The position numbers and the translations under genes are program-made. This document shows positions 57,101 through 64,000 of a stretch of 64,000 nucleotides of DNA, piece by piece. Position 1 is the stretch's first letter. Every line of letters begins with the position of its first letter. A model generated the notes under the pieces. That model did no database searches. It saw nothing but the letters and a program-made list of their open reading frames with translations, and was not told where the DNA came from. This DNA is from Oscillospiraceae bacterium (GTDB taxonomy: Bacteria; Bacillota; Clostridia; Oscillospirales; Acutalibacteraceae), in the NCBI GenBank assembly GCA_015066445.1, contig SVOK01000004.1:45498-109497 (forward strand), written 5' to 3'.

Positions 57101-57928
57101 ATGAAAAAAACTATTCTGTCTGTCTTTATATTACTGTTGATTTTGTGTCTTGCGGGCTGTAAAAACAATGAAAGGAAAACCGCTGTAACCGTCATTTCAA
57201 GAGAGGACGGCTCGGGCACAAAAACAGCCTTTGAGGATATTTTTAAAATTGAGCAAACCACCGTAAATGCTGAAATAACCAATTCCACCGCCGTTATGAT
57301 AAATACCGTTATCGGGGACAAAAATTCCATAGGCTATATTTCCTTAGGGGCTATAAATCCTGATATTAAAACCATTAAAATAGATGGCAGCGAATGTAGC
57401 GCCCAAAACATTAAAAACGGAAGCTACAAAATAAAGCGCAGCCTTAATATTGTAACAGATGAACGCATTAACGATATTGCGAAAGATTTTATTAAGTTTT
57501 CTTTAAGTAAAGAGGGACAAGCGGTTGTAGAAAAAAGCGGATATATAAGTATTGACACCAAAGAACAATATAATTCAGCCAATTTGAGTGGTGAAATAAC
57601 TGTTTCCGGCTCTTCCTCAGTAGCGCCCGTTGTTGAAAAGCTCAAGGAGGAATATATAAAGCTTAACCCCAATGTTACTATAGAAATACATCAAAATGAC
57701 TCCACAACCGGAATCGGCAGTATTATTGAAGGTATTGCAGATATTGGTATGGCTTCAAGAGAGCTTAAAAACTCCGAAATCAAAAAGGGACTCTCATCAA
57801 AGCCCATTGCTTTAGACGGAATTGCGATAATTGTAAACAAGAAAAATCCGTGCGACGAATTATCAAGTGAGCAAATAAATAAAATTTTCAGCGGTATAAT
57901 AACTAACTGGAATGAGTTGAGGAATTAG
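57101..57928 (+). CDS. pstS: Phosphate-binding lipoprotein PstS, circularly permuted
   Basis: The 275-residue lipoprotein (lipobox CLAGC) begins with what is normally the second half of PstS: TVISREDGSGTKTAFEDIF, ITNSTAVMINTVIGDKNSIG, YISLGAINPDIKTIKIDG and a terminal EGQAVVEKSGYISI. After a short linker (about 150-160) comes what is normally the first half: ITVSGSSSVAPVVEKLKEEY, NDSTTGIGSIIEGIADIGMA and FSGIITNWNEL, where the protein stops. All phosphate-contact loops (GSSS, STTG, EDGSGT) are present, so it probably binds phosphate. It is followed directly by pstC, pstA and pstB. The rearranged order is read directly from the sequence; its spread in related bacteria is not known to me for certain. 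Confidence 0.9.
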   Translation: MKKTILSVFILLLILCLAGCKNNERKTAVTVISREDGSGTKTAFEDIFKIEQTTVNAEITNSTAVMINTVIGDKNSIGYISLGAINPDIKTIKIDGSECSAQNIKNGSYKIKRSLNIVTDERINDIAKDFIKFSLSKEGQAVVEKSGYISIDTKEQYNSANLSGEITVSGSSSVAPVVEKLKEEYIKLNPNVTIEIHQNDSTTGIGSIIEGIADIGMASRELKNSEIKKGLSSKPIALDGIAIIVNKKNPCDELSSEQINKIFSGIITNWNELRN

Positions 57929-57930
57929 TC

Positions 57931-58785
57931 TTGCAAAAATTAAGCGAAAAATTTATGAAAGCAATTTTCTTTACTGCGGCGCTTGTATCGGTAATAGCAG
58001 TAATACTGATTTGTCTTTTTTTAGGAATTAACGGAATTTTAACTATTGAAAAAATAGGTGTAAAAGATTTTTTGACCGGCACCTTATGGCAACCTCTTAA
58101 AGGGCTTTACGGTATACTTCCTATGATAATCGGAAGTATTTATGTAACAGCAGGAGCGATAATATTAGGTGTTCCTTTAGGGCTGCTCTGCGCCGTATTT
58201 TTAGCCTACTTTTGTCCTAAATGGTTGTATCGGATTTTAAAGCCCGCCACAGACCTTTTAGCAGGAATCCCCTCTATTGTTTACGGCTTTTTCGGGCTTA
58301 CCGTAATAGTCCCTTTAATACAGCGCCTTTTTGGAGGCTCCGGCAAGGGTGTGCTTGCGGCTTCACTAATTTTAGGAATTATGATATTGCCGTCAGTAAT
58401 AAGTATTTCCGAAGCCGCTTTAAGAGCCGTTCCTAAAAGCTATTATGAGGGTGCATTGGCACTTGGTGCCACTCACGAAAGGGGAGTTTATTCAGTAAGC
58501 CTGCCTGCGGCTAAATCAGGCATTGCAGCAGGAATTGTTTTAGGTGTTGGCAGAGCTATTGGCGAAGCAATGGCAGTAAGTATGGTGGCAGGAAATCAAC
58601 CAATAATACCAGGCAGTATTTTAAGCGGTGTTAGAACACTTACTTCAAATATAGTATTGGAAATGGGCTATGCTGAGGGGCTTCACCGAGACGCTCTTAT
58701 AGCCACAGGAGTTGTGCTGTTTGTTTTTATTCTTATAATTAATATTATGTTTTCACTTTTAACTTCTAAAGAAAGGAATAAGTAA
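57931..58785 (+). CDS. pstC: Phosphate ABC transporter permease PstC
   Basis: The 284-residue permease starts at a TTG two bases after the pstS stop, with GAGG in the end of pstS as ribosome binding site. It has six helices; GVKDFLTGTLWQPL at the start, AGIPSIVYGFFGL in the middle and the EAA-type SYYEGALALGATHERGVYSV are typical of PstC. It overlaps pstA by one base. Confidence 0.94.
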   Translation: MQKLSEKFMKAIFFTAALVSVIAVILICLFLGINGILTIEKIGVKDFLTGTLWQPLKGLYGILPMIIGSIYVTAGAIILGVPLGLLCAVFLAYFCPKWLYRILKPATDLLAGIPSIVYGFFGLTVIVPLIQRLFGGSGKGVLAASLILGIMILPSVISISEAALRAVPKSYYEGALALGATHERGVYSVSLPAAKSGIAAGIVLGVGRAIGEAMAVSMVAGNQPIIPGSILSGVRTLTSNIVLEMGYAEGLHRDALIATGVVLFVFILIINIMFSLLTSKERNK

Positions 58786-59648
58786 TGCTAAGCTCAATAA
58801 AAAACAGGATATCTTATTTTAAGAAAAGACCCGTAGCATTAATATTATTTTTAATAACCTGGTCAGCAGCAATAACAACCGTTTTAGCAATCGCCTTTAT
58901 AATAGCTTATATCCTCGCTAAGGGTTTGCCACACATAACCCCTTCCCTTTTTGAATTTAAATACACAAGTGAAAACGCCTCTCTTACCCCTGCTCTTATA
59001 ACCACGCTTTACATCACTCTTTTTTCCCTGCTGTTAGCTGTACCGCTTGGTATTTTTTCAGCAATTTACCTTGTTGAGTATTCAAAACAAAAAAGCCCTT
59101 TGGTAAAGCTTATTCGCACCACCACCGAGGTTTTGGCGGGAATCCCATCTATTGTTTTCGGGCTTTTTGGATATCTTATATTTGTTATATTTTTAAAGTT
59201 GGGCTATTCAGTAATATCCGGAAGTCTTACTCTTGCTATTATAATTTTACCTGTAATAATCCGCTCAACCGAGGAAGCGCTTTTATCGGTTCCCATATCT
59301 TATAGAGAGGCAGGCTTTGGCTTGGGCGCAGGAAAGCTTCGCACAGTGTTCAAGGTTATTATTCCCTCCGCATTGCCTGGTATTTTTTCAGGAATTGTGC
59401 TTTCCTCGGGCAGAATTTTAGGCGAAACCGCCGCTCTCATTTACACCTTAGGTACAGCGTCAGGAGTTCCCAAAACCTTTTTAAAAGGTGGCAGAACACT
59501 CGCTGTTCATATGTACGCACTTTTAAACGAGGGGCTTTACTATAATCAGGCTTATGCCACGGCGGTAATTCTTTTATTGCTTGTTTTAATTATAAACAGT
59601 ATTTCCGCCTTTTTAGTACACCTTAAAACCAAAAAGCTTAAAGGATAA
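58785..59648 (+). CDS. pstA: Phosphate ABC transporter permease PstA
   Basis: The 287-residue permease has six helices, [17 protein letters not shown] and [20 protein letters not shown], and the PstA-type end [15 protein letters not shown]. It partners PstC in the same membrane complex. The start ATG overlaps the pstC stop. Confidence 0.94.
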
Positions 59649-59652
59649 AGTT

Positions 59653-60402
59653 ATGAATAAAATATCGGTTAAAAATCTTAATCTTTGGTATGGGAATCAT
59701 AATGTGCTTAAAAACATAAGCCTTGATTTACCCAAAAATCAGATAACCGCATTTATCGGTCCTTCAGGCTGCGGAAAATCCACCCTGCTCAAATGCCTTA
59801 ACCGAATGAATGACCTTAACGAAGAATGCCGAATAACAGGTGAGGTTTTATTGGACGGGAAAAGCATTTATCATAATACCGATGTTGACACACTCCGCCG
59901 CAGGGTTGGAATGGTTTTTCAAAAGCCTAATCCGTTTCCAATGTCCGTTTTTGATAACATTGCTTTCGGTCCTCGCACCCACGGAATACGCAATAAGGAA
60001 AAACTATGCGAAATTGTTGAAAGCTCCCTTAAAAGCGCCGCAATTTGGGATGAGGTTAAGGACAACCTCAAAAAAAGCGCTTTGGCGCTGTCAGGCGGAC
60101 AACAGCAAAGACTTTGTATTGCAAGAGCATTAGCTATAAAGCCTGAAGTGATTTTAATGGACGAGCCAACTTCTGCATTAGACCCAATATCCACACATAA
60201 AATTGAGGAGCTGGCGTTAAAGCTAAAGCCTGATTACACTATCGTTATTGTAACCCATAATATGCAGCAGGCCGCAAGAATTTCGGATAACACCGCTTTT
60301 TTCCTTTTAGGCGAAGCAGTAGAATATTCACCCACTAAAGAGCTTTTTGAAAACCCAAAGGATACTCGCACCAAGGATTATATTGAAGGCAGATTCGGCT
60401 AA
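59653..60402 (+). CDS. pstB: Phosphate ABC transporter ATPase PstB
   Basis: The 249-residue ATPase has Walker [10 protein letters not shown] (about 38-46), signature LSGGQQQRL, Walker [13 protein letters not shown] and the PstB-specific [10 protein letters not shown] end. It powers phosphate uptake. phoU, which usually follows pstB, is absent; a terminator begins a few bases after the stop. No PhoP/PhoR genes are in the window. Confidence 0.96.
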
Positions 60403-61137: not shown

Positions 61138-63042
61138 TTAGACTGTAATTCGCTTAGATGGAAAAACAATTTCGTCTGCCTTACAGCGGATTTGATAGAA
61201 TTGCTTCACCCATTCGGGCAGTTTTTCCACTTCGTCCTTAATCTTAATGAGCGTTCTCTTTCCTACTCGTCTGTCCATATATGCGAACACACGCAACAAA
61301 TAGTTGTCGGAGTTCAAAGATGTTGTGATGTCGGTTTTGAGATAACTGGTAAGGGAATTGATAAAATCAGCATCACACAATTTACACTCTGGCATCCATT
61401 TTTCTTTTTCTAATTCCCCATAAGAAACCTTTTTGCCCTTGTGGTAAAGTTGAGATACTTCCCGTTCCTGTGCATACATCTCCACCCACGAAAAGGAAAC
61501 CAGTTCTTTTTTGTTATAGTTAATAGTTGCTCTGCCATAAGCATTATGAACCTCGTGATAACTGGTGTAGAAATAAGAGATTTTATCTTTTAGAGAATCG
61601 CAAAGCAAATCATTCATCTGCTTTTTCAGATTGCTCCAAGACTTGTATCTGCTTTTTTCATCAGAAATCATTTCCGTTTCATTGCTACACTCATCGCCCT
61701 TTTTCCTACTCAAACAAACAACAGTCTCTATATGCGAAGTGCGTGGGAATAAATCACACGGAGTATACTCTACAAGCTCATAACCCATTTCACCAAATAT
61801 CTTAATATCACGGGCAAGAGTTGCAGGGTCGCAGGAGACATACACTACCCTTTCGGGTGAGAATTTGTTAGCAATGGTATCTATCAGTTCCGCGCTACAG
61901 CCCTTTCGGGGTGGGTCAACTATTACAACATCTGTCTTAATATTTTCCTTTGCAAGCTCCTCCGCAGCCTTTGCCGCATCAGCGCAGATAAACCGTGCGT
62001 TCTCTATTCCGTTAAGCCGAGCGTTATACTCAGCATCCTTTACAGCCTCGGGTATAATTTCCACACCGATTACGCTTTTAGCCTGCCTTGCCATCGAAAG
62101 ACCTATAGTACCTGCTCCGCAATAAAGGTCTAATATATTTTTATTTTTGGGTTTTGCATACTCTGACGCCTTTTTATAAAGCTTTTCTGCCATAGTGCGG
62201 TTAACCTGATAAAAGGATAGCGCCGAAAGTCTTACTTTGACATCGCAAAGAATATCGGTTATATAACTTTCCCCATAAAGAGTTTTGCATTTATCCCCGA
62301 GTATAACATTGGTATTTTGTTTATTAATATTAATCTGCAAGCTTTTAAGACTCTCACCCAAAGCGTTTTTCAATTCCGTGATAAGCTCATCCTCAAAAGG
62401 CAAATCATCGTCGTTTATAACAAGAGTAAGCATTATTTCGCCCGTCTGCTCTGCCTTGCGGATATATATATGTCGAAGAAGTCCTTTGCTGTTATCCTCA
62501 TTATAAATGCTAATTTTATTTTTTGCTATCCACTTTTCGCAGATTTCGACGATTTCGCCGAATTCCAACGGTTGAAGCTTACAGTCACCGCAAGGAACAA
62601 TTCTATGAGAATGAAAAGCATAAAAGCCTGCCTTACCGCTTAAACAAATTGGAAACTGCGCCTTGTTTCTATAGCGGTCAGTATCTTCACCATATAAAAT
62701 CGGTTGAGGCGCTAAATCCACACCGCCTATTCGCTTAATAACCTCATAAACCTTGTTTGATTTAAGCTTTAATTCAGCTTCATAGCTAATATGTCTGTAA
62801 ACACAGCCTCCACACTGATTAAAAACAGGACAGTCGGGAATAATTCTGTCAGGCGAAGGTGTGATAATTTCCAAAGCCTTACCGAAGGCATAATTCTTTT
62901 TAACCTTTAAAATTTTGACCTTGGCTTTATCGCCCACTGCGGTAAGAGGAACAAACACTGCCATACCGTCAGATTTTCCAACACCATTGCCCTCGTTAGT
63001 CACATCAATAATATCTAAAATAATTTCATCATTTTTTTGCAT
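61138..63042 (-). CDS. rlmD: 23S rRNA uracil-5-methyltransferase RlmD with an extra C-terminal SF0329-like domain
   Basis: The 634-residue protein has a TRAM domain (about 1-60), Fe-S cysteines Cys71, Cys77, Cys80 and Cys151/154, a SAM-binding LDLYCGAGTIGLSMA and the catalytic Cys404 in YVSCDPATLARD. The enzyme core ends near 445 (HIETVVCLSRK), where relatives normally stop at about 450-460. A further 190 residues follow, with WSNLKKQMNDLLCDSLKDKI, YGRATINYNKKELVSF and LNSDNYLLRVFAYMDRRVGKR. I recognise this part as similar to the stand-alone SF0329 family of unknown function. The frame is continuous. RlmD methylates U1939; what the tail adds is unknown. Confidence 0.88.
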   Translation of the reverse strand: MQKNDEIILDIIDVTNEGNGVGKSDGMAVFVPLTAVGDKAKVKILKVKKNYAFGKALEIITPSPDRIIPDCPVFNQCGGCVYRHISYEAELKLKSNKVYEVIKRIGGVDLAPQPILYGEDTDRYRNKAQFPICLSGKAGFYAFHSHRIVPCGDCKLQPLEFGEIVEICEKWIAKNKISIYNEDNSKGLLRHIYIRKAEQTGEIMLTLVINDDDLPFEDELITELKNALGESLKSLQININKQNTNVILGDKCKTLYGESYITDILCDVKVRLSALSFYQVNRTMAEKLYKKASEYAKPKNKNILDLYCGAGTIGLSMARQAKSVIGVEIIPEAVKDAEYNARLNGIENARFICADAAKAAEELAKENIKTDVVIVDPPRKGCSAELIDTIANKFSPERVVYVSCDPATLARDIKIFGEMGYELVEYTPCDLFPRTSHIETVVCLSRKKGDECSNETEMISDEKSRYKSWSNLKKQMNDLLCDSLKDKISYFYTSYHEVHNAYGRATINYNKKELVSFSWVEMYAQEREVSQLYHKGKKVSYGELEKEKWMPECKLCDADFINSLTSYLKTDITTSLNSDNYLLRVFAYMDRRVGKRTLIKIKDEVEKLPEWVKQFYQIRCKADEIVFPSKRITV

Positions 63043-63580: not shown

Positions 63581-64000
63581 TTATGCGGTTTTTGCTGTTG
63601 GTTGTGCGAGGACGTCGATTGCGGGGACACCTTCCTGTTCGGGAAGTCGGAAGGCATAGTGGATTTGGATCGGGTTGCCCGCCGTTCGTGAGTATTTCTC
63701 GAACTTCTCGTACACCTCTATTCTGCGGATGAACACTCGCAGCAGTTCGGGTGTCAGCTTCGGCATTTCGATATACTGCTTGGCGTTGCGGATAAATTCT
63801 TGTATGCATTTATCCCGCATATCTACCTCGCCGATTCGCTCTACCAACTCTTGCAGCTCACGTTTCTTTTCCGCCTGCTCTTGCTCATATCCATTTGCCA
63901 TGGAATCATATCGTTCGGGTGTGATTCTTCCCGATACTCTATCCTCGTACAAACACCGAATGATGTTGTCCAGGTCTTGGATTCGCTTTTCAAGCTGCTC
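63581..64000 (-). CDS. Large serine recombinase, C-terminal fragment (gene continues beyond window)
   Basis: The open frame runs off the right edge; 139 residues are visible. It begins within a coiled-coil stretch (EQLEKRIQDLDNII) and continues YEDRVSGRITPERYDSM, and later LTPELLRVFIRRIEVYEKFE, the DUF4368-type C-terminal region of large serine recombinases such as TndX. These excise and integrate Tn4451-like transposons and other elements. The coding region is clearly more GC-rich than the rest of the window, which supports foreign origin. The catalytic Ser domain lies outside the window. Confidence 0.85.
   Translation of the reverse strand, partial: EQLEKRIQDLDNIIRCLYEDRVSGRITPERYDSMANGYEQEQAEKKRELQELVERIGEVDMRDKCIQEFIRNAKQYIEMPKLTPELLRVFIRRIEVYEKFEKYSRTAGNPIQIHYAFRLPEQEGVPAIDVLAQPTAKTA

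Follow-up and report, generated by a model that had tools for sequence, protein, structure and literature searches.

A likely phosphate-binding protein PstS with its two halves in swapped order, encoded at the head of a pstSCAB operon

Permuted and canonical relatives of the window protein

Permuted binding proteins as such are already known. TpMglB-2 (Tp0684) is a circularly permuted type I sugar-binding lipoprotein, termed 'Type Ic', which still binds and closes, and its relatives come mostly from treponemes and Gram-positive bacteria (PMC4990184). Permutation also occurs among other two-lobed binding domains, namely in a structural family of betaine- and molybdate-binding proteins with CysB (OpuAC, ProX, the molybdate-binding protein and CysB; CPSARST, PMC2395249). 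The protein described here is encoded in the window, a 64,000-nucleotide stretch of DNA from an Oscillospiraceae bacterium that was analysed as a whole, and resembles TpMglB-2 in being a permuted, predicted lipoprotein receptor. However, TpMglB-2 belongs to another fold class, has another cut site and shows an added fourth hinge crossing (PMC4990184); in the window protein, two hinge strands in the predicted model and the match to 4H1X speak against such a crossing. The members of the OpuAC, ProX, molybdate-binding protein and CysB family are distant from one another, at <24% identity, and were recognised by structure (PMC2395249), whereas the relatives of the permuted PstS share clear sequence similarity.

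PstS2 of Streptococcus pneumoniae (SP_2084, PDB 4H1X, released 2012) shares with the window protein the C-N order of its halves, a cut in the interhalf loop and a joining linker. The pneumococcus possesses it beside a canonical PstS1 (4exl), which phmmer aligns to the window protein in two stretches, the best covering window-protein residues 165-273 on chain positions 5-115, while the search of the window's genome turned up no second one. The canonical PstS of Clostridium perfringens (4GD5/4Q8R) matches each half of the window protein at 89-92 bits, with a C-half that superposes at 36-38% identity, and both proteins have the REDGSGT and GSxS motifs. They differ in that the canonical halves run in the opposite order, with the termini and anchor presumably on lobe I. 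Similar to the permuted PstS, the fused tandem PstS proteins (N-C-N-C, 526-577 aa) contain a C-to-N joint inside one chain, but they keep two complete receptors and are not sister to the permuted clade.

An earlier note on this DNA, which knew of no description of a permuted PstS, did not mention that the same order is already present in 4H1X. On the matter of description we concur with it: literature on PstS and permutation, judged by title and the start of the abstract and in a coverage outside which most subscription journals lie, yielded none, and neither did the accessible parts of the literature on 4H1X, pneumococcal PstS2, SP_2084 and permuted binding proteins. In the available text of the article on pneumococcal Pst1 and Pst2 (PMC4913102), 'permut' occurs 0 times. 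The permuted PstS is widespread, structurally solved in a relative and apparently unremarked, and as a variant it is apparently new; the comparison reveals the permuted order in PstS2, a pneumococcal protein with a public structure.

Half order, cut site and predicted lipid anchor

The ORF at 57101..57928 (+), located there by the earlier note and checked by translation, encodes 275 residues. The signal peptide (57101..57160, +) carries the lipobox LAGC, whose Cys20 is the predicted lipid-anchored residue, as judged from the sequence and a lipobox pattern scan over relatives. The C-half of PstS (residues 27-153; 57179..57559, +) comes first, and the N-half (residues 162-274; 57584..57922, +) comes second, connected by an eight-residue linker (residues 154-161; 57560..57583, +) that fills the gap between the two half-profile matches and joins the old C- and N-terminal ends. 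Both PstS half-domains were found by TIGR02136 in two separate stretches, with profile positions 161-294 (84 bits) upstream of positions 35-157 (111.5 bits). The half-domain profiles used to set the edges were built from alignment A1, which comprises 41 permuted sequences with the window protein among them, and are hence not independent of it.

A search against PDB sequences using phmmer revealed that 4H1X ('Phosphate-binding protein pstS 2'), the crystal structure of pneumococcal PstS2, covers residues 26-273 in one stretch with an E-value of 9.5e-53, an end-to-end match. No full-length match in the normal order was obtained, as the canonical PstS 4q8r and 4gd5 align in two crossed pieces, and the N-before-C order was found with neither TIGR02136, phmmer nor the half-profiles. 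The E. coli-type PstS 1ixh was matched in its N-half alone (E 0.012); it is absent among the 50 structural matches listed for the window protein, which excludes nothing. On these alignments, the ORF encodes a circularly permuted PstS, as the earlier note had proposed.

The whole-protein TIGR02136 score, composed of the two crossed stretches, is 188.3 bits and lies under the curated cut-off of 206.6 bits; the protein is therefore not filed as a plain member of the family, as expected for a permutant. Its match to Pfam PF12849 (PBP_like_2) is 119.5 bits, above the gathering cut-off of 27, and 41/41 members of A1 match this family at E 0.001 or better. Several relatives are named only 'substrate-binding domain-containing protein', which together with the sub-cut-off score illustrates how a family cut-off can hide a permuted order.

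The permuted pstS heads a pstSCAB operon. Downstream lie the pstC permease (57931..58785, +; TIGR02138, 288.8 bits, cut-off 196.45), the pstA permease (58785..59648, +; TIGR00974, 256.6 bits, cut-off 193.45) and the pstB ATPase (59653..60402, +; TIGR00972, 412 bits, cut-off 343.2), all three NCBIfam equivalogs above cut-off, and the operon is intact as previously noted.

In the predicted model, the first hinge strand (residues 112-119; 57434..57457, +) would run from lobe II to lobe I and the second (residues 232-246; 57794..57838, +) from lobe I to lobe II. Both strands are unbroken, and the chain would therefore still cross the hinge twice, in the order II-I-II, not I-II-I. The new ends fall in the loop between the helices that close the N-half and the strand that opens the C-half, and published PstS domain limits (PMC12421899) would place this loop in lobe II. 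These observations depart from the earlier note, which had put the new ends at a point between the two lobes and expected an altered connection at the hinge: the interlobe strands are whole in the model, the two crossings are those of canonical PstS, and the ends probably lie within lobe II. Its expectation of a displaced lipid anchor fares better, since the lobe bearing the termini and the anchor would differ, having shifted from lobe I to lobe II.

The short joining linker it described corresponds to the eight residues 154-161. Among 66 non-redundant permuted proteins, the joint spans -2 to 7 positions (quartiles 5 and 6), and from the end of the N-half to the terminus of the chain there are -3 to 8 residues. 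The half-profiles of 70 canonical proteins lie -2 to 2 positions apart, and the C-to-N joint of 19 tandem N-C-N-C proteins spans -7 to 14 positions. Measured from the lipobox Cys, the first core position lies at a median distance of 15 in the permuted proteins (lipobox in 61/65 non-redundant proteins) versus 21 in the canonical ones (60/70), a comparison that shows no difference in anchor-linker length in these non-redundant sets (Mann-Whitney p 0.19); over all distinct proteins the medians are 14 (179/300 permuted) versus 21 (87/106 canonical). The tethering-strain idea put forward for TpMglB-2 (PMC4990184) does not transfer simply to PstS, because the N-terminal strand enters a likely anion-binding loop directly in both orders. 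The two PstS halves show a like order of secondary structure in the model, and a comparison by hhalign gave no sequence support for their being ancient repeats of each other (probability 0.4%).

Origin of the swapped order

We hold with high confidence an overall explanation in which the window protein is a permuted, predicted lipid-anchored PstS that serves PstCAB as phosphate receptor, with its anchor on lobe II and a single origin through duplication, fusion and trimming. Like any PstS, its two lobes would close on phosphate and deliver it to PstC and PstA of the importer encoded immediately downstream. Because the cut falls where the two halves meet, in a loop putatively of lobe II, the binding loops and both hinge strands would stay whole; the old ends, presumably in lobe I, are bridged by the short linker, and lobe II, in place of lobe I, would bear the termini and hence the lipid anchor. 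Judging from the trees and from the tandem proteins that exist, the order most likely has a single origin: pstS would have been duplicated in tandem and fused in frame, after which the N-half of the first copy and the C-half of the last were lost. The permuted PstS has likely been inherited since then together with its own permease.

For phylogenetic analysis, the halves were cut at the profile edges and put in one order, and near-copies were removed, leaving 168 rows: 67 permuted, 71 canonical and 30 units contributed by 15 tandem proteins. The joined FastTree tree sets all permuted rows, including 4h1x and Treponema, on one side of a branch with a support of 94, and the half trees alone each give a single permuted clade (support 87 in the N-half and 97 in the C-half). 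A more careful tree of 55 rows (27 permuted and 28 canonical, no tandems) divided the permuted rows into two groups, with a single group in 18% of bootstraps and the bootstrap not settled. With the permuted rows constrained to stay together, the log-likelihood was 5.94 higher, and the AU test did not reject the constrained tree (p-AU 0.602). Removal of the long-branch row L053 restored a permuted group with a support of 95/92, present in 98% of bootstraps. L053 has the same cut as the other permuted PstS, and its PstC falls within the permuted clade. The window protein, whose composition was flagged as unlike the rest of the tree alignment, falls with 4H1X and separately from canonical PstS both in the joined tree and, once L053 is removed, in the careful tree. 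The permuted PstS likely form one clade within canonical PstS, the divergent row L053 being less firmly placed.

The tandem fusions are scattered in the canonical part of the tree, with 10 label changes, of which starred branches force at least 6; in 12/15 tandem proteins, the row nearest to each unit is the other unit of that protein. These proteins came from a search with a tandem query and from two phylum-survey genomes, and show repeated origin, not frequency. By these trees, fused tandem PstS arose repeatedly among relatives, which favours duplication, fusion and trimming as the route by which the permutation came about. In the 168-row trees the permuted clade has no tandem protein as its neighbour, and we therefore propose this intermediate by analogy.

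A different history, in which the order came from joining halves of two canonical pstS genes or arose more than once, is unlikely yet carries some weight. That halves can recombine is suggested by mixed proteins that carry an additional half (6 C-N-C and 5 N-C-N of 441 distinct), and the 55-row tree split the permuted rows. However, the N-half and C-half FastTree trees each return a single permuted clade and the cut and junction length are uniform. The ten complete mixed proteins each stem from a single metagenome contig, 1.7-8.8 kb long, and may be assembly chimaeras. Duplication and fusion with a single origin therefore remains our preferred reading. Striking about the permuted PstS are, besides this likely single origin, a cut that stays fixed, tandem forms that coexist with it and a predicted shift of the anchor, whose consequence is so far putative.

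The proteins with one and a half receptors are P0005, P0028, P0263, P0277 and P0290 (C-N-C), P0343 (C-fragment, N, C), and P0032, P0266, P0270, P0272 and P0286 (N-C-N). For most of these, scores place the C-N part with the permuted family and the extra half with canonical PstS; they would be either recombinants or assembly chimaeras. Three complete receptor units per chain were seen in P0245, P0246, P0247, P0248 and P0250 (782-836 aa). At locus L007 (G048:C220), two canonical pstS lie side by side on one strand as an unfused tandem, with ~210 bases between the matches.

This receptor exists in canonical, tandem-fused and permuted form, all close enough for ordinary sequence trees, and a single pneumococcal cell harbours both orders (4exl and 4h1x). 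Two questions can thereby be tested directly: by what route circular permutations come about, and whether a binding protein is affected by which of its lobes is fixed to the membrane.

Likely phosphate-receptor function, permease partner and distribution

The REDGSGT motif (residues 34-40; 57200..57220, +) and the GSSSV loop (residues 170-174; 57608..57622, +) are likely anion-binding. Across the 41 aligned permuted sequences, R34, E35, G37, S38, G39 and T40 of the former and G170, S171 and S173 of the latter do not vary, and neither do S201, S219 and R220. We take the GSGT and GSxS loops to bind phosphate as in E. coli PstS, and the invariance of the motif residues points to retention of the phosphate-contact loops, as the earlier note had stated.

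The protein of 4H1X is SP_2084, which is pstS2 (PMC12687362). Going by its name, D39 PstS2 would be the same permuted protein as TIGR4 SP_2084. In S. pneumoniae D39, Pst1 or Pst2 is reportedly sufficient for phosphate uptake at 1 mM, loss of both cuts the uptake rate of unencapsulated D39 by about half, and Pst1 weighed more than Pst2 at 200 uM phosphate after starvation (PMC4913102). As uptake of phosphate by the pneumococcal Pst2 has been reported, the permuted form most likely works in vivo and, by analogy, the window protein likely works as a phosphate receptor, in keeping with the functional protein that had been predicted.

It is quite improbable that the permuted PstS has changed its function and become a receptor for phosphonate, phosphite, arsenate or sulfate, or a sensor, instead of a phosphate importer subunit. 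Such a change would agree with the TIGR02136 cut-off not being reached and with the lack of a PhoU match in the window's own genome (G000, 87% complete) despite the pst operon. However, the PstC, PstA and PstB equivalogs lie directly downstream, a PstC match was found within the examined flanks of 44/46 distinct permuted loci (33/34 canonical loci), all 41 aligned sequences keep the motif loops unchanged, the order pstSCAB-phoU is found in the operons of Treponema saccharophilum and Monoglobus pectinilyticus, and phosphate uptake has been reported for pneumococcal Pst2 (PMC4913102).

The PstC associated with permuted PstS form one clade with a support of 99 in a FastTree tree of 78 sequences (one short row dropped), and these phylogenies indicate that receptor and permease have stayed together in this sample. 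Operon linkage explains the matching clades as well as co-adaptation does. PstC differs by clade at 11 positions, for which kinship alone can account, and the only indel tracking the permuted receptor is one alignment column. Tentatively, and with more doubt than confidence, two natural classes of Pst importer might be distinguished by receptor topology, separated by a single ancient event of duplication, fusion and trimming that reversed the order of the PstS halves, shifted the lipid anchor from lobe I to lobe II and tied the new receptor to a permease lineage of its own, so that the anchored receptor would dock with PstCA in a different geometry; if so, pneumococcal Pst1 and Pst2 would be a side-by-side pair of both.

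In the first protein search, 7998 candidates were scored and gave 7988 relatives. Classification of the window protein and the best 120 of these 7988 by the half-domain profiles revealed the C-N order in 118/121, the remaining three being two C-N-C and one N-C-N. With the Treponema saccharophilum homologue as second query, 120/120 matches listed were C-N. The order is thus common to 238/241 proteins among the matches listed in both searches, in addition to 4H1X, a degree of conservation that rules out chance. Named carriers include Treponema saccharophilum, Monoglobus pectinilyticus, S. pneumoniae and Clostridia, the last as the earlier note had believed. An assembly or annotation artefact that swapped the halves of a normal gene, which that note had itself raised and which a 42-contig draft might invite, has practically no chance of being correct and is ruled out by the conserved order among these relatives and in the 4H1X crystal structure, with P0002, a full-length protein 94% identical to the window protein, coming from a different public contig.

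The window genome is a 1.75 Mb draft in 42 contigs. A scan of its contigs with one protein query gave a single locus, and the permuted pstS is the only PstS found in this 87% complete draft, from which a second one could be missing; a further profile match (E 0.016, over positions 7-77, in a 511-residue frame) was not significant. Within the window's order, 62/147 genomes match the permuted profile at E 1e-25, comprising 33 with the C-N order (31 full span and 2 partial) and 29 with canonical PstS only. Three of the 33 also carry a canonical PstS, and each PstS in these three genomes has a separate PstC gene beside it. Mutual exclusion of the two arrangements within this taxonomic order is suggestive only: of the 147 genomes, 33 have a permuted and 32 a canonical PstS, and 3 have both where 7.2 would be expected (Fisher p 0.055), canonical relatives being counted at E 1e-25 or better. 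Among 398 genomes of the phylum, where at most six candidates were scored per genome and the counts are a lower bound, at least 14 full-span permuted matches at E 1e-40, at least 2 tandem matches and at least 4 with a canonical piece were found. The genome G043, of the same genus and 99% complete, has neither PstS nor PstC matches, and the pst operon is therefore patchy, seemingly gained or lost within the genus.

Elsewhere in the window, 61138-63042 (-) encodes a uracil-5-methyltransferase-like protein (TRAM and PF05958) with a C-terminal SF0329 domain fused on. Near the window's end, a short ORF at 63581-63952 (-) matches PF14287 (DUF4368), and we presume it to be the tail of a serine recombinase.
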